From: Caenibius tardaugens NBRC 16725
GTDB taxonomy: Bacteria; Pseudomonadota; Alphaproteobacteria; Sphingomonadales; Sphingomonadaceae
Assembly: GCF_003860345.1 (NCBI RefSeq)
Contig: NZ_CP034179.1
Coordinates: forward strand, 1,782,001-1,846,000
Direction of reading: 5' to 3'
DNA length: 64,000 nucleotides
The stretch's first letter is position 1. Each line of letters opens with the position of its first letter. Both the position numbers and the translations under genes were made by a program. Below, in pieces: positions 8,932-14,347 of this stretch. Below the pieces are notes generated by a model, which saw nothing but the letters and a program-made list of their open reading frames with translations, had not been told where the DNA came from and ran no database searches.

Positions 8932-9732
8932 ATGGCTGATTTCTTTCTTTTCGGGCTCGGTTACAGCGCCCGCGTTCTTGCGGACCGGCTCCTTGCCGAT
9001 GGCTGGGCCGTGCAGGCGACAGGCAGCGCGGGCACGATTGCCTTCGCCGATGACGATGCCGTGCGCGCCGCGCTTGCCAGGACCAGCCACGTCCTCTCGT
9101 CCGTCCCGCCAGAGCCGGATGGTGCCGACCCGGTGCTGACCCGTTATGGCGATGCCCTGTCCGGGAAATGGCTGGGCTACCTGTCATCCACCGGCGTCTA
9201 TGGGGATGCCGGGGGCGCATGGGTCGACGAAAGCAGCCCTGTGGGCGTCGGCCGCCGCAGGGCGCGCGCCGCCGCCGATTCGGCATGGCTGGGGGTCGGA
9301 GCCCATGTGTTCCGCCTGCCCGGCATCTATGGACCGGGTCGCAGCGCGCTGGATCGCGTGCGGCAGGGCACGGCTCATCGTATTGCTCTGCCGGGGCAGG
9401 TGTTCAGCCGGATTCATGTCGAAGATATCGCCGAAGGCGTGCTGCACGCGCTCACCACACCGGGCGGGGCGTTCAATCTGGCCGACGATCTGCCCGCCAG
9501 CCAGAACCGCGTCATCGCGGAAGCGGCCCGTCTGCTGAACAGGGCGCCACCACCGCTGGTCTCTCTGGAGGAAGCAGGCCTCTCCCCCGCAGCGCGCGCG
9601 TTCTATGCGGAAAACAGGCGGGTTGCGAACGGCAAGGCGAAACGCCTGCTTGGCTGGCGCCCACGCTATCCTACATATCACGCTGGACTGCAGGCCATTC
9701 TCGCAGCCGAAGCCACAAAGAGGAACCTATGA
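8932..9732 (+). CDS. NAD(P)-binding SDR/epimerase-fold protein (YeeZ-like)
   Basis: 266 residues. An N-terminal Rossmann strand and nucleotide loop are seen as FFLFGLGYSARVLADRL (residues 4-20). The active-site region YLSSTGVYGD lies near 83-92, and LPGIYGPGRSALDRV near 125-140 is typical of extended SDRs that act on sugar nucleotides. The family includes YeeZ-like proteins whose substrates are not known. It overlaps the next gene in an ATGA arrangement, so the two are probably co-translated. Substrate not assigned. Confidence 0.75.
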   Translation: MADFFLFGLGYSARVLADRLLADGWAVQATGSAGTIAFADDDAVRAALARTSHVLSSVPPEPDGADPVLTRYGDALSGKWLGYLSSTGVYGDAGGAWVDESSPVGVGRRRARAAADSAWLGVGAHVFRLPGIYGPGRSALDRVRQGTAHRIALPGQVFSRIHVEDIAEGVLHALTTPGGAFNLADDLPASQNRVIAEAARLLNRAPPPLVSLEEAGLSPAARAFYAENRRVANGKAKRLLGWRPRYPTYHAGLQAILAAEATKRNL

Positions 9733-10037
9733 GCGAATCCATCGAGATCCTCCGCCAGATCGATGCCACCGGCGGCGAATATCAGGCCATTGTGCCCGGC
9801 AGCCCGCATATCGGCCACATGACATGGCGGCAGGTCGGCACCGGCGGGAAGGATGTCCGCCTCGTCAATCACACGCTGGTCCCACCGGAAATCGGCGGAC
9901 GCGGCATTGCGGCGCAACTGGTGCAGGCGTTGATCGACGATGCCCGCGCGCAGGATTTCCGGATCATTCCGCAATGCAGCTATGTCGTGGCACAGTTCCG
10001 CCGCCATCCCGATTGGGCAGACGTTCTGGCCAGCTAA
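9729..10037 (+). CDS. Small GNAT-like N-acetyltransferase (NATD1/YjdJ type)
   Basis: 102 residues. The compact fold has a short beta-hairpin and the acetyl-CoA region LVNHTLVPPEIGGRGIAAQLVQALIDDAR (about 44-72), with the RGxxxxL turn of GNAT enzymes. The ending IIPQCSYVVAQFRRHPDW is the signature end of the small GNAT_acetyltr_2/NATD1 group. The start ATG overlaps the stop of the upstream SDR gene by 4 bases. The substrate is unknown. It is the last host gene before the tRNA-Thr element. Confidence 0.8.
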   Translation: MSESIEILRQIDATGGEYQAIVPGSPHIGHMTWRQVGTGGKDVRLVNHTLVPPEIGGRGIAAQLVQALIDDARAQDFRIIPQCSYVVAQFRRHPDWADVLAS

Positions 10038-10077
10038 ACCCGGGTTCACGCCCGCCACTTGCCATGATTGGGGAAAG

Positions 10078-10111
10078 GGCTGGTGCTGCTGGGGAGGATT
10101 GAACTCCCGAC
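10078..10111. repeat. Left attachment-site repeat (tRNA-Thr 3' fragment)
   Basis: 34 bases identical to 14270-14303. It contains the last 31 bases of a tRNA-Thr gene (T arm, acceptor 3' strand, CCA) in minus orientation but no anticodon arm, so it is a displaced fragment and not a gene. Confidence 0.92.
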
Positions 10112-10297
10112 GCTACAACACACATCATTGGAAAACTTAGACTTTTTTAGATCGGCTTGGGAGGCTGTAATGCCCCATTGTAACAACCGCGACAAGCCCT
10201 GAATCCTGTGTATTCGATCGTTGTTTCGACCCGCAGGCCGGCTCATAGCCCAACTGACCGAGCGCACCGACATCAACCATAAGGTATCTGACGATAA

Positions 10298-10326
10298 CGA
10301 GACCCCCGCAGAGTGCAGGGGTCTCG
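10298..10326 (-). terminator. Hairpin after the small-gene cluster of the element
   Basis: A 9-bp perfect stem (cgagacccc / ggggtctcg) with an inner partial stem. It lies just past the stop codon of the 44-residue gene at 10334. The T-tract on the minus strand is weak (GTTATCG), so termination is inferred mainly from position. Confidence 0.5.
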
Positions 10327-10333
10327 CCTTTCT

Positions 10334-10468
10334 CTACTTCCGCTCGGGATGCTTTATGCGCTCCCGCTCGGTCGTCGCAGGGTGCCGCTGAGCATATCGT
10401 TCAGTTACAAAGCGCCCCGTCTGCGAACTGCGATGGGACGTTTGTGTCGGCACTTTCTTACCGGACAT
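10334..10468 (-). CDS. 44-residue basic hypothetical protein of the element
   Basis: The protein is MSGKKVPTQ... with the central motif SSQTGRFVTERYAQRHPATT (residues 14-33) and a basic, charged end. The TGRFVT-Y-HP-TT pattern resembles a widespread family of tiny hypothetical proteins found on alphaproteobacterial plasmids and islands (recalled from general knowledge, not searched). The ATG at 10468 has AAAAGGA about 7 bases upstream, a good ribosome site. It follows the 41-residue gene on the same strand by 97 bases and precedes a hairpin, so the two may form an operon. Function unknown. Confidence 0.58.
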   Translation of the reverse strand: MSGKKVPTQTSHRSSQTGRFVTERYAQRHPATTERERIKHPERK

Positions 10469-10565
10469 GGCGTGTCCTTTTCTGAAAGTGACCTGTCTCA
10501 TATCAGCGAACGAAAAGGGGTGCCCCCACCCACCATGCGCAATGGCGAGTGGAGGCCGTGATTGG

Positions 10566-10691
10566 CTAGTCGTCCACGATCACGGGAAACGCGCGAATAC
10601 CGCGCTCACGAGCATAAACTCGTTTTCCTTTGATCGTGATCCATGCACGCCAGATCACTCGCTTACCCGGAGGTGCGCTGATCTTCGACAT
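10566..10691 (-). CDS. 41-residue basic hypothetical protein of the element
   Basis: The protein is MSKISAPPGKR followed by VIWRAWITIKGKRVYARERG and IRAFPVIVDD. The pattern W-x-T-x-K-G-K-R-x-YAR-x-x-G-x-xAFP recurs in tiny hypothetical genes of rhizobial and sphingomonad mobile DNA (from memory). The ATG at 10691 is preceded by TGAGGT at a spacing of 7, a strong ribosome site for such a short frame, and the frame ends in TAG. It probably forms a unit with the 44-residue gene downstream. Function unknown; the size and basic charge would suit a DNA-associated or toxin/antitoxin-like accessory role, but nothing shows this. Confidence 0.55.
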   Translation of the reverse strand: MSKISAPPGKRVIWRAWITIKGKRVYARERGIRAFPVIVDD

Positions 10692-11181
10692 GTCATACCT
10701 CATTCATGAGGGTGGCCCGACAATCTTTGCGTCCGATCTGAACCGTGCTACGCACGGCTTGCACACAGGTCAGGATCGCGCACCCGTAACAGGGGCCACA
10801 TTCTGTTCCGGGATGGGGAGGTTCACTTTCATGTGGACTTCCCCGTTTCCCTGAGTCCTCAGCATAGCTTCAGAATCGGCAGCATGTTGGAGGCCCGGGC
10901 TTACGGGAGCAAGGTGTATGGACCTGTGGATATTGTGGATAGCGCGAGTTGAGTTTCATGACGATTACGATCAGATGAGGCGACTCGCAGGAATCCCTTA
11001 TGTTGCGAGCGCGGCAACCCCGGTCGTTATAATCGGGGGAAAGTAGAGTTTTCCACAGCCCCCTGATTCGTATACCCTGCATTTGGCACCGTCCACTTGC
11101 GTCGATGGCTATGATGCCAACCGAATCTGTATCGAATCGGATGATTCTCAGATTTTGACGTCAGACTCGCCATTCCATGTA
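10692..11181. other. 490-base stretch of the element without a convincing gene
   Basis: No open frame here has both a ribosome site and recognisable content. A 20-codon frame on the minus strand (10770-10832) has GGGGAAG upstream but is too short to claim. The stretch holds three DnaA-box-like 9-mers (10925-11058), a small perfect hairpin ccgtgc-gta-gcacgg near 10754, and nested inverted repeats at 11124-11154. It reads as a regulatory or replication-type region. Confidence 0.5.
10925..11058. other. Cluster of three DnaA-box-like sites
   Basis: TGTGGATAT (10925-10933) and TGTGGATAG (10934-10942) are directly abutting and each matches the DnaA box TGTGGATAA at 8 of 9 bases. TTTTCCACA (11050-11058) matches the reverse box TTATCCACA at 8 of 9. 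An AT-rich segment CGTTATAAT lies between them. Three near-boxes within 134 bases suggest a DnaA-binding region, perhaps an origin, but no Rep gene is seen. Confidence 0.35.
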
Positions 11182-11340
11182 TCAATCGCACTCGACGATG
11201 TTTGGCTGAAGTCCTCGTGTGAGACGGTAGTCCTTACTGAATCCGCATAGCTCGCCCCCATACCCCCAATCCAACGCTCGCAGGAAAAAGAGCCGCTGGC
11301 CATTTCCTGTACGATCTTTGGCCGTCATCTTGCTGACCAT
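11182..11340 (-). CDS. Possible 52-residue hypothetical protein of the element
   Basis: The frame runs ATG (11340) to TGA with 52 residues, starting MVSKMTAKDRTGNGQRLFFL and ending GLQPNIVECD, with a central DWGYGGELCGFSKDYRLTRG. The composition looks protein-like, with balanced charge and aromatic residues. A weak GGGA lies 13 bases upstream, so the start is uncertain; a second ATG at 11328 is possible. It is divergent from the resolvase and shares its promoter region. No family recognised. Confidence 0.35.
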   Translation of the reverse strand: MVSKMTAKDRTGNGQRLFFLRALDWGYGGELCGFSKDYRLTRGLQPNIVECD

Positions 11341-11379
11341 CGCGACGCGCCGTCCCGTATCGTTACCGGTCGTTTACGG

Positions 11380-11398
11380 TACACCTCCGGAGGGTGTA
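11380..11398. promoter_or_regulatory. Near-perfect palindrome upstream of the resolvase (operator or res subsite)
   Basis: TACACCTCCGGAGGGTGTA, a palindrome with one base out of step, lies 13 bases before the -35 box of the resolvase. Serine resolvases usually bind inverted repeats in a res site just upstream of their own gene. Two weaker inverted repeats flank it: taccg/cggta near 11364-11381 and gtgca/tgcac around the -10 box. Role inferred from position. Confidence 0.4.
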
Positions 11399-11410
11399 TC
11401 AAAAAATAGG

Positions 11411-11440
11411 TTGACGGGAGTTTCGGTGCACTTCTAGAAT
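11411..11440 (+). promoter_or_regulatory. Sigma-70-type promoter of the resolvase gene
   Basis: -35 TTGACG (11411-11416), an 18-base spacer and -10 TAGAAT (11435-11440); each hexamer matches consensus at 5 of 6. Start of transcription is expected near 11447, about 26 bases before the ATG. The inverted repeat gtgca/tgcac spans the -10 box, which would suit autorepression. Confidence 0.55.
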
Positions 11441-11472
11441 CGATGCACGGTTCCGATACAGGGGGATGCACT

Positions 11473-12051
11473 ATGACCCGCACATTTGCCTACTGCCGCG
11501 TCAGCACGCTAGACCAGACCACAGACAATCAAGTGAGGGAGATCGAGGCCGCAGGCTTTGCCGTGGAGCCCAAGAGGATCGTCACAGAGACCGTCTCCGG
11601 GTCTTTGCCCGCTATGGAGCGGAAAGGCTTTACCAAGCTCCTAGACCGGCTTGAGGCAGGCGACGTGCTCATCGTCACTAAGTTGGACAGGCTGGGCCGT
11701 AACGCGATGGACGTTAGGGCTACGGTCGAGAAGCTGGCAGCCGAGGGCATCCGCGTTCATTGCCTTGCCTTGGGCGGTGCGGACCTCACCAGCCCAGCCG
11801 GTAAGATGACCATGAACGTTATTGCTGCAGTGGCAGAGTTCGAGCGGGACCTCCTGATCGAACGGACGCAGGCTGGCCTCAGCCGAGCCAAGGCGGATGG
11901 TAAGCGGCTGGGCAGGCCGATGGCGCTCACCGAACAGCAGCAGTCCGAGATAGCCGAGAAGCGCAAGGCTGGGATGAGCCTACGAACTCTGGCCAAGGAA
12001 TACGGCACCAGCTTGGCATCAATCCAAAGGGCAGAGGCAAGGGCCGCCTAG
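11473..12051 (+). CDS. Serine recombinase, resolvase/invertase family
   Basis: 192 residues from the ATG at 11473; an upstream in-frame ATG at 11443 adds 10 unrelated residues. The N-terminal catalytic domain has YCRVSTLDQ with the nucleophilic Ser near residue 9, and [12 protein letters not shown] (about 66-77) with the conserved Asp-Arg-x-x-Arg. An [21 protein letters not shown] segment forms the E-helix. The C-terminal end (about 146-192) is a Hin/Tn3-type helix-turn-helix (GRPMALT...[18 protein letters not shown]). It could resolve multimers or invert or excise DNA. Full length, so not the large-serine type. It is the second recombinase of the element. Confidence 0.93.
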
Positions 12052-12177
12052 AATGCCCTGAGAAGCCCTGTGAGAATCTTATGGGATAGATGGGCCCTTG
12101 GGTAGCGGAGAGCTCACATTGACTCTGAGAGGGACCCTGAGGAGTCCTAGCGTCCATAGCGCAAGTGGAGTGCGGCA

Positions 12178-12369
12178 ATGGATATAGCGGGCGCACTCTA
12201 CGACCTTAGGTTGTCATGGGCTCACGTGCAGGACGCGGCTGGGTTCTACCTAAGGGTTTCCATATGGCTCTATGGGCGCTTAGGAAGGCCACCGGGTAGG
12301 TCATATGCGCTTACCCTATCTGTCTCTTTTTCCACGGAGATAGGTACGGATGAAACCCACGATAATTAG
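12178..12369 (+). CDS. Possible 63-residue protein of the element
   Basis: The frame begins MDIAGALYDLRLSWAHVQDA and contains a hydrophobic-aromatic middle (FYLRVSIWLYGRL). GGAG stands 7 bases before the ATG, a good ribosome site, and the gene would follow the resolvase on the same strand by 126 bases. Codon use is unlike the host, as elsewhere in the element. No family is recognised. It may be a chance frame in repeat-rich DNA. Confidence 0.25.
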   Translation: MDIAGALYDLRLSWAHVQDAAGFYLRVSIWLYGRLGRPPGRSYALTLSVSFSTEIGTDETHDN

Positions 12370-12535
12370 CCATCAGGTCATTTTGGGACCGTACAGAGAG
12401 ATACCCGTATCTGTCTCAAAAACCATGGCTACCATGGGGTACCCCTGTTCCAAACAGGATACCTCCTTAGAGGGTAACCAAGAGATATATCTAGGAATAG
12501 AAATCCCGGATGACCTACAAGGCAAACGACCCTGA
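12350..12535 (+). CDS. Possible 61-residue protein overlapping the tandem repeat
   Basis: The frame starts MKPTIISHQVILGPYREIPV, with TAGGT about 6 bases before the ATG and a 20-base overlap with the preceding frame. It runs through the first copy of the 140-base-period repeat. The second copy is out of frame, so the repeat is not a protein repeat. This favours a nucleic-acid role for the repeat and makes the frame doubtful. Confidence 0.18.
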   Translation: MKPTIISHQVILGPYREIPVSVSKTMATMGYPCSKQDTSLEGNQEIYLGIEIPDDLQGKRP

Positions 12536-12658
12536 GTGAGATACCCATATCTGTCTTAAAAACCATGGGTTATCCATGGGGTACCCCCTGATGAAAACAG
12601 GATAACTCCGTTAGAGAATACCATAGGGATATACCTAAAGATCATATCCCGGATGATA
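12396..12658. repeat. Two imperfect tandem repeats (about 120 bases, period about 140) with hairpins and T-runs
   Basis: Copy 1 is about 12396-12515 and copy 2 about 12536-12658. On the minus strand, which is downstream of the integrase, each copy folds as a series: a stem near GTATCCTGTT/AACAGG, then CCATGG-loop-CCATGG followed at once by TTTTT, then AGATAC/GTATCT. The CCATGG pairs are at 12423-12437 and 12563-12579, with the runs at 12418-12422 and 12558-12562. The hairpins are kept although the loops differ. A degenerate third start of the unit is at 12311-12325. The repeat could be a double terminator for the integrase transcript or a structured RNA. Confidence 0.7.
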
Positions 12659-12748
12659 CCCTAGGGGAAATACCTCTAGAGAGGCCCTAAGGGACCACCA
12701 GGGCAAATCCCAGACCATATCGACGGGTAGAGATGAAGCTCATTATCG

Positions 12749-14188
12749 TCAGAACTGATAACGAGGTAGCTTCTCTATGGCATCCCTCAGAGTGGCGAGA
12801 GGGACTGATCCGTACTTCCCTCCTTCATGTCGAGGTGCATGTCCCTGTATCTTGTCGGCAATGTGCTCGGGGATACCTGCCGCGCGTGACTGGGTTTTGA
12901 ACCTGTGCCGCCACCCATGGTTCGGTTGCGGGGTAATGATACCAAGACTCCGGACCCACTTAGCAAGATCACTCGCCCGAATCTTGGAGGCAGGGTTGAT
13001 TTCGTTGCCCGCTCCCTGCCGATAAAAGAGAGGTGTAGCGTCTCCAGCCTTGGCAAGTTGGGTAATGCCCTGCTCGACAAGATGAGAGTGCAGAGGGACC
13101 TTCCGAGCCTCATTGGTCTTTACACCACCGTCAGCCTCGGGGCTGATGAGTACGTACCAGATGCCCCCTTCTTTTTGAATGTCCATGGCCCGGAGCTGCG
13201 TCATCTCCCCGACGCGCGCACCCGTGTAGGCACATAGCCATGGCACCCAGCGCCTCGCTAGAGCATGATGTTTGGTCAGCTTCGGGGGTTGAGGTTGAAG
13301 TGCAGCCCGCAAGATGGTGGCGGCCTCACCATCGGAGTGGTCGCGCTCACGTGGCTTTACCGGCTTGGGCGCTCTGACCGTCAATCCTGCGGCAGGATTA
13401 GCGGGAAGTTCGCCGTCATCATGCGCGATTGCGAAGGCTGCGCGAATGGCTGGCAGGTATCCATCCACGATGGTCTTCCTGCTCAGCCCTTCAGCCACCA
13501 ACCTGGCGATCCACGCGTTCATGTCAGCCCGTGTCACATGACGTGCATCATCATGGCCAAGATGCTCGATCAGTTTCTCCACCGCCCTACGCCATTTACG
13601 GACAGTTTTCGGTTTCGCCGCACCTGAGACAGCATAGCGATCGAACAGCACACCCAACTCAATCCTAGAACTTGTGGAAGTCTCGTTGATCGGGGCTATA
13701 CCGAGCCTCTGATTGCCCGCATTCAAGACAGACACAGCCTGTCTTAGGGCCGCGAGCTCCGCATCTTGTTCTCTCAAGAGATCGATTGCAGCCGCCTCTT
13801 CCGGTGCCAACATGGCAGTGCTGGTGTGTCTCCGAATCCGCCATAGCGTCCGAAGGTCGCTGCGCGCTTCCCGTCGCTTTCTACTTTCCTCTTCAAGAAA
13901 CCCCCGAGCGGCTTCCTCCTCGAGTTCTCGCTGGGGTCTCAGCGATACCTCCGGTGCTTCAGTGGAGGTTCGAGCTAACTCATGCCGAGCGGCATCGATC
14001 AGATCATCCGTTTCGACCTCATGAGGCCGCAGTTGCCGTTTGGCCGATTCGCGATCCTTGACGCCTAAGCTAAACTTCCACTCGGTTCGAGGCTTACCCG
14101 AGGAGGTCTTGAAGAACCCTAAGAGGTCTTTGGGAACAGCGCGGCGAAAGTAGTAGGTCGAACCGACCTGATCGAGATAGGAACACAT
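12749..14188 (-). CDS. int: Tyrosine site-specific recombinase (integrase)
   Basis: 479 residues. The N-terminal arm-binding type region begins YYFRRAVPKDLLGFF (about 12-26), a SAM-like core-binding domain spans about 180-270, and the catalytic domain follows. Catalytic residues seen are Arg in AYTGARVGEM (about 336-345), Lys in VKTNEARKVPL, His-x-x-Arg in HGWRHRFK (about 427-434) and the Tyr in GGKYGSV near residue 460. ATG 14188 has GGAG 7 bases upstream. The gene lies 82 bases from the attachment repeat and reads away from the tRNA, as for tRNA-specific integrases. It drives integration and probably excision of this element. Confidence 0.95.
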   Translation of the reverse strand: MCSYLDQVGSTYYFRRAVPKDLLGFFKTSSGKPRTEWKFSLGVKDRESAKRQLRPHEVETDDLIDAARHELARTSTEAPEVSLRPQRELEEEAARGFLEEESRKRREARSDLRTLWRIRRHTSTAMLAPEEAAAIDLLREQDAELAALRQAVSVLNAGNQRLGIAPINETSTSSRIELGVLFDRYAVSGAAKPKTVRKWRRAVEKLIEHLGHDDARHVTRADMNAWIARLVAEGLSRKTIVDGYLPAIRAAFAIAHDDGELPANPAAGLTVRAPKPVKPRERDHSDGEAATILRAALQPQPPKLTKHHALARRWVPWLCAYTGARVGEMTQLRAMDIQKEGGIWYVLISPEADGGVKTNEARKVPLHSHLVEQGITQLAKAGDATPLFYRQGAGNEINPASKIRASDLAKWVRSLGIITPQPNHGWRHRFKTQSRAAGIPEHIADKIQGHAPRHEGGKYGSVPLATLRDAIEKLPRYQF

Positions 14189-14199
14189 GGGTGGTCTCC

Positions 14200-14213
14200 G
14201 TTACAAATGTAAC
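14200..14213. promoter_or_regulatory. Perfect palindrome between the integrase start and the attachment site
   Basis: GTTACAAATGTAAC (5-bp arms flanking a 4-base self-complementary centre) lies 12 bases upstream of the integrase ATG. It could be an operator for integrase control or an arm-type binding site. No excisionase gene was recognised. Confidence 0.4.
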
Positions 14214-14269
14214 AGCCGACTGTCAAAAACCCCAAGTTTTCCGAGAGTTTCCAGCATTTCTGCGGGAAA

Positions 14270-14303
14270 GGCTGGTGCTGCTGGGGAGGATTGAACTCCC
14301 GAC
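14270..14303. repeat. Right attachment-site repeat (overlaps the intact tRNA-Thr 3' end)
   Basis: 34 bases identical to 10078-10111. This copy is part of the complete tRNA-Thr gene, so integration regenerated the tRNA 3' end on the integrase side. Confidence 0.92.
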
Positions 14304-14347
14304 CTCACCCTTACCAAGGGTGCGCTCTACCACTGAGCTACAGCAGC
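14273..14347 (-). tRNA. tRNA-Thr (anticodon GGT)
   Basis: 75 bases including an encoded CCA. The acceptor stem GCTGCTG/CAGCAGC is perfect, the D arm reads TAGCTCAGTGGTAGAGC, the anticodon stem CACCC/GGGTG encloses TTGGTAA (anticodon GGT at 14313-14315), and the T arm reads TCGGGAGTTCAATCCTCCC. Discriminator A is followed by CCA. It decodes ACC (and ACT). Its 3' third is the integration target of the element to the left. Confidence 0.96.

Follow-up and report, generated by a model that had tools for sequence, protein, structure and literature searches.

A cargo-poor tRNA-Thr island of Caenibius tardaugens with a tyrosine integrase and a serine resolvase, a probable member of an island family with paired recombinases

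The element and its insertion site

We examined a 64-kb window of the genome of Caenibius tardaugens NBRC 16725 (contig NZ_CP034179.1), to which all positions given without a locus name refer, and focus here on a 4.2-kb element that lies in a tRNA-Thr gene and carries a tyrosine integrase, a serine resolvase and a small cassette of leader RNA and microproteins. A perfect 34-bp direct repeat (10078-10111 and 14270-14303; 43 bp at 93% when extended) bounds the element, as a reading made from the sequence only had stated, with 4,192 bp of inserted DNA between the repeat copies. Repeat alignment places the proximal att repeat within the 3' end of the target gene, tRNA-Thr (GGT; 14273-14347, minus strand), which is kept intact, while the distal att repeat is a copy of that 3' end and is missing from the empty site of two congeners (G001 and G002). 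In both congeners, a query made of the joined flanks aligns unbroken (~74% over ~1.15 kb) and contains one tRNA copy; therefore, the 4,192 bp represent an insertion, and the island entered the tRNA-Thr 3' end at a site that is empty in these two genomes.

The integrase gene starts ~82 bp from the repeat, that is, it adjoins the tRNA end. The element is present once in its own 4.36-Mb genome, and its GC content ranges from 44 to 62% compared with 60-70% in the flanks. The tRNA 3'-end repeat at both ends, the adjacent integrase and the empty site together identify it as a tRNA-targeted genomic island. Apart from the two recombinases, scans of all six frames with stops read through returned no significant Pfam or PHROG family in the element, which includes the absence of a relaxase or transposase from the Pfam scan and of a terminase, capsid-remodelling, primase, AlpA-like or replication gene from the Pfam and PHROG scans.

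Two recombinases and their candidate sites

The recombinases are of two chemistries, which agrees with the sequence-only reading. The integrase (12749-14188, minus strand, 479 aa) combines an N-terminal DUF6538 domain with SAM-like and Phage_integrase domains; its expected catalytic residues R325, K357, H424, R427, H450 and Y459 are all present and vary little or not at all across 15 aligned relatives, and no integrase relatives were found in the viral contigs searched. The serine resolvase/invertase (11473-12051, plus strand, 192 aa) matches Resolvase with E 5.5e-38 and retains the residues conserved in its family, its closest sequences of known structure being DNA invertases and gamma-delta/Tn3 resolvases. 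Its start codon was taken as the ATG at 11473, with a further in-frame ATG upstream at 11443. Both recombinases look intact.

Close to both ends of the element, in inverted orientation about the att core, lies a motif that might serve as integrase arm sites: GGAAAACTTAGACTTTTT at the distal end (10130-10147, plus strand), which is 83% complementary to 14225-14242 (minus strand) at the integrase end. The flank at the integrase end is conserved in L032, an island described below (74% over 292 bp), which also carries AAAAAGATCGTTATTTTCC at the position equivalent to the distal motif.

Upstream of the resolvase gene, a res-like region (11374-11463, plus strand) contains the inverted half-sites CGGTACA and TGTATCA followed by CGATGCA and CGATACA, at -98, -80, -34 and -21 relative to the ATG. 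These half-sites overlap a promoter-like TTGACG-18-TAGAAT (11411-11440), and their positions are matched upstream of the resolvase relatives L005 and L008-L013, where the motif reads CGATACA...TGTATCG. Such a layout is what would be expected of a self-repressing resolvase that binds and recombines a res site of its own. A second res site above chance level was not found within the window.

Pairing of the two recombinases across islands

Identifying the relatives of this element places it among other islands. We assembled 20 repeat-bounded islands with this integrase type, 19 from genomes of the same bacterial family and one, L032, from a Sphingomonadales metagenome-assembled genome. Their targets include tRNA-Leu, -Ser, -Thr, -Ala and -Tyr genes and their sizes range from 2.75 to 17 kb. 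A serine recombinase of 184-264 aa is also present in 19 of the 20; two islands (L033 and L044) had been collected via their resolvase, and when these and the window element are left out the pairing holds in 16/17. The same association appears at the level of genomes. Across 20 genomes, a small serine recombinase lies no more than 20 kb downstream (in all cases within ~13 kb) of 26 of the 38 DUF6538 integrases, versus 5/62 for other tyrosine integrases, around which eight of the 20 genomes were searched over 20 kb in both directions (Fisher P 2.7e-10). A few genomes had been picked through the resolvase, and without them (G000, G141 and G356) the DUF6538 pairing is 23/32. The window element itself combines a DUF6538-type integrase and a serine recombinase of <300 aa in one repeat-bounded unit.

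Between islands, integrase identities and serine-recombinase identities are uncorrelated (rho 0.10, P 0.32). For instance, L033 and L044 have resolvases 75-77% identical to that of the window element, but their integrases match the window integrase at only 25-26% identity. It seems, therefore, that the pairing persists while the partners get exchanged, and the two-recombinase pair looks like the signature of an island family, as if its members had been swapped independently. Searches of open-access papers gave no description of this paired-recombinase architecture among the titles and abstracts listed. One genome, G142, holds four separate integrase/serine-recombinase pairs (C1 at 1.40, 2.03, 2.14 and 3.36 Mb) and would be good material for studying exchange between islands.

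The relatives are mostly 7-17 kb long, and their cargo includes type I restriction subunits, C5 methylases, a TIR protein and an Lmu-like SMC protein. Thus the suspicion that a small tRNA integrative element is unusual in carrying so little large cargo was well founded, whereas the idea of an undescribed system was not, because the recombinase pair is common to a family of larger defence-gene islands and makes up no system of its own. L032 occupies the same tRNA-Thr gene beside the same gpmA-like (phosphoglycerate-mutase-like) gene, with copies of a 33-bp repeat 7.7 kb apart; the N-terminus of its integrase is 60% identical to that of the window integrase but the gene is stop-interrupted, and its cargo differs, consisting of signalling genes as judged from reading the translations. 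At the lower end of the size range, a tRNA-Leu island of 2.75 kb (L100 1897-4647, from G102) is a decayed relative with a truncated integrase, a serine recombinase and a 91-aa fragment of a type I restriction family. The window element is the smallest still-complete-looking member of the island family.

A leader RNA and two-microprotein cassette

The left end of the element holds an operon read leftwards (10290-10850, minus strand; all its parts lie on this strand). It opens with a hairpin with a 12-bp stem (10815-10844, z -5.3), whose place is taken in G240 and L172 by a hairpin of other sequence, followed by a structured leader RNA of ~110 nt (10692-10803; model R1, 10 copies), whose 3' end may form a hairpin that masks the Shine-Dalgarno sequence. 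Next come p45 (10566-10691), a 41-aa basic protein (MSKISAPPGKRV...) with relatives 76-78% identical in G240 and L172, and p55 (10334-10468), a 44-aa basic protein (MSGKKVPTQTS...) with 84% identical relatives and occurrences in four larger viral contigs. A second hairpin (10301-10329, z -4.6) likely ends the operon. Neither p45 nor p55 matched a protein family, and changes in p45 among relatives fall mainly at codon position 3, an excess of silent changes in an otherwise intact cassette.

The same operon was found in genome G240, viral contig L172 and the Mu-like phage contig L185. In G240 and L172 it lies inside a head cluster of the gene transfer agent (GTA) type, with the terminase gene on one side and the portal gene on the other, gene names being assigned from translations. 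Accordingly, the sequence-only reading was mistaken in seeing no recognisable cargo, since a leader RNA with two small genes recurs elsewhere. Its "tiny genes" do exist, although they belong, together with the local hairpins, to the conserved leader/p45/p55 cassette. Of its two structured non-coding stretches, 12050-12740 is somewhat more stably folded than shuffled sequence (z -2.7, 20 shuffles), while 10720-11440 is unremarkable when taken whole (z -1.4), only the two local hairpins on the cassette side standing out. Coordinates of the cassette elsewhere are L034:9985-10540, L172:4170-4740 and L185:2670-3135. Two relatives (L118 and L185) encode a helix-turn-helix (HTH) regulator upstream, and L035 has a PIN-domain protein and an HTH protein of the excisionase family as neighbours.

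More divergent relatives of p45 or p55 also have a recognisable leader. When six copies were used to build a covariance model, it recovered four held-out copies (E 1.7e-7, 3.9e-6, 4e-4 and 6e-3), which had been spotted by eye before the model was built, yet were not used in it; all four are located upstream of such a relative, and there were no other matches in ~2 Mb. Among the ten copies, 93% of cells pair and two-sided changes occur at 10/22 pairs, a level attained by 0/500 shuffles and by no slid version; this alignment was fitted to the structure, and a six-copy MAFFT alignment agrees in direction. Immediately before the start codon, a hairpin covers the ribosome-binding site in the window element, G240, L172 and L185, which suggests translational control: the leader probably regulates p45 translation through this masking.

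The leader has no Rfam match over the gathering score. A resemblance of its GGACGCAAAG to the c-di-GMP-I riboswitch was considered and rejected, as Rfam gave no match of this kind up to E 10. We also considered the leader as a regular component of GTA clusters and rejected this, since it was present at 0/40 other GTA loci. In GTA-type clusters, the gap between terminase and portal genes is usually <100 nt and reaches 0.2-1.7 kb in some genomes (L034 ~9530-10533, L172 3792-4734, L189-L228); such widened gaps may be places where small cassettes insert.

Between the convergent recombinase genes lies a palindrome-rich, AT-richer non-coding stretch (12060-12740) with no relatives in any collection searched. 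It includes a diverged 123-bp duplication at 79% (12395-12513 and 12535-12656). A T7-like or other phage origin of the 12.05-12.75 kb region was rejected, as there was no plasmid match and no exact match of its repeat motif in viral contigs, and none of the phage matches listed went beyond the resolvase and the tRNA. A replication origin was likewise rejected, with DnaA-box-like sites no commoner than chance.

Interpretation and alternatives

We consider the element to be, most probably, an integrated, recombination-competent and cargo-poor tRNA island of the paired-recombinase family that would depend on a helper for cell-to-cell transfer. The sequence shows no damage to the integrase, the att core, the arm-like sites, or the resolvase and its own site. 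The tyrosine integrase would integrate and excise the element, and the serine enzyme may use the res-like site that overlaps its promoter to reduce dimers or tandem copies to one, and may repress its own gene. As the element has no gene for transfer, packaging or replication, movement between cells would require a helper, be it a phage, a GTA or a conjugative element. Its sole cargo is the cassette of leader RNA, p45 and p55. Of the options first proposed, namely a self-sufficient element, a satellite or a remnant, a small recombination-competent island fits best, with self-sufficiency given up as far as transfer is concerned.

Several observations weigh against this interpretation. A search of related genomes for the same arrangement drew a blank, the 4.2-kb unit occurring in no second genome among the 398 family genomes searched. 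We recognised no excisionase in the element, and ~1.4 kb of it is non-coding and without relatives, as in a decaying element. Furthermore, outside the bacterial family the small partner occurs at only 4 of ~24 adequate DUF6538 loci. This rarity rules out pairing as a general DUF6538 property; the pairing is therefore a clade habit and no general law.

An immobile remnant, in which a larger defence island lost its cargo by internal deletion while its ends and recombinases survived, is unlikely but deserves some weight because one relative, L100, is clearly decayed: at 2.75 kb it holds a truncated integrase, the resolvase and the 91-aa type I restriction fragment. That relatives of 7-17 kb carry cargo, and that the element has long non-coding stretches, would also suit such a history. 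However, the integrase and the resolvase have unbroken frames and their catalytic residues, and conservation extends to the att arms and the res-like site. The cassette is likewise undamaged, with silent changes in excess, and the six-frame scans detected no fragment of cargo. The view of the element as a degraded part of a larger island thus holds in that the family consists of larger islands, and fails in that the window copy has no broken gene.

Very improbable is a phage or GTA satellite that a helper packages, with the cassette and leader RNA as its helper-sensing or helper-modifying part. In favour of this reading, the cassette occurs in GTA-type head clusters, where terminase and portal genes flank it (G240, L172), and in Mu-like L185; 4.2 kb is near the DNA load of known small-capsid GTAs; and the unrelated phage Mae-JY04 carries, next to its own integrase, an attP-like 45-bp sequence nearly identical to the tRNA-Thr end. 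Against it, the element lacks any terminase, capsid-remodelling, primase or AlpA-like gene, the host genome yielded no GTA-type capsid, and no cos or pac site was identified. The Mae-JY04 copy (L229, PP395637.1, 4001-4045) lies just downstream of an unrelated tyrosine recombinase gene and is an apparent attP for the same tRNA gene; this phage, recorded on Microcystis, may really infect a co-cultured bacterium.

Returning to the recombination-competent island, a bolder extension, which we regard as doubtful, is that the res site might be an exchange point at which co-resident islands swap the integrase half against the cargo half, and that the leader might represent a new class of cis-acting RNA controlling a two-microprotein cassette that moves among islands, prophages and GTA head clusters. 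One integrase clade almost always comes with a small serine recombinase drawn from several unrelated lineages, which points to an unrecognised required step, either multimer or tandem resolution or module exchange, and many genomic islands have no known means of movement or maintenance. Since the 4.2-kb element is small enough to be cloned whole, the pairing step is testable. The leader RNA offers a second entry point, with ten copies, compensatory changes and a defined two-microprotein operon outside Rfam. Both the pairing rule and the leader RNA hold more interest than the element's small size, which first drew notice.

Comparison with known systems

In the six-frame Pfam scan, the element showed neither the relaxase of integrative conjugative and integrative mobilizable elements nor the transposase of transposons with a resolvase. 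Its serine enzyme resembles solo Tn3/Hin-type resolvases in having a small catalytic domain with an HTH and inverted half-sites that overlap its own promoter; it differs in having no transposase beside it and in sitting inside a tyrosine-integrase island.

PICMI are minimal phage satellites located next to fis in Vibrionaceae, with three core proteins for excision and replication (PMC10803314). The window element is likewise very small, with reduced gene content, an integrase and no capsid-remodelling genes, but it lies in tRNA-Thr and has no replication protein, and hence differs from PICMI as defined.

Islands with a tyrosine integrase and phage-defence cargo are known from tRNA and tmRNA (transfer-messenger RNA) genes, such as I23, I44 and I55 of Pseudomonas (PMC12595487). 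The tmRNA site and alpA gene by which IntY/AlpA tmRNA islands are recognised (PMC12595487) do not apply here, since the window element is at tRNA-Thr and no AlpA was found; it also differs in having a dedicated serine resolvase with its own site and in being 4.2 kb long without a defence gene. Like I23, I44 and I55, however, it lacks autonomous transfer genes, combines direct repeats with a tyrosine integrase beside an RNA gene, and has relatives that carry defence genes.

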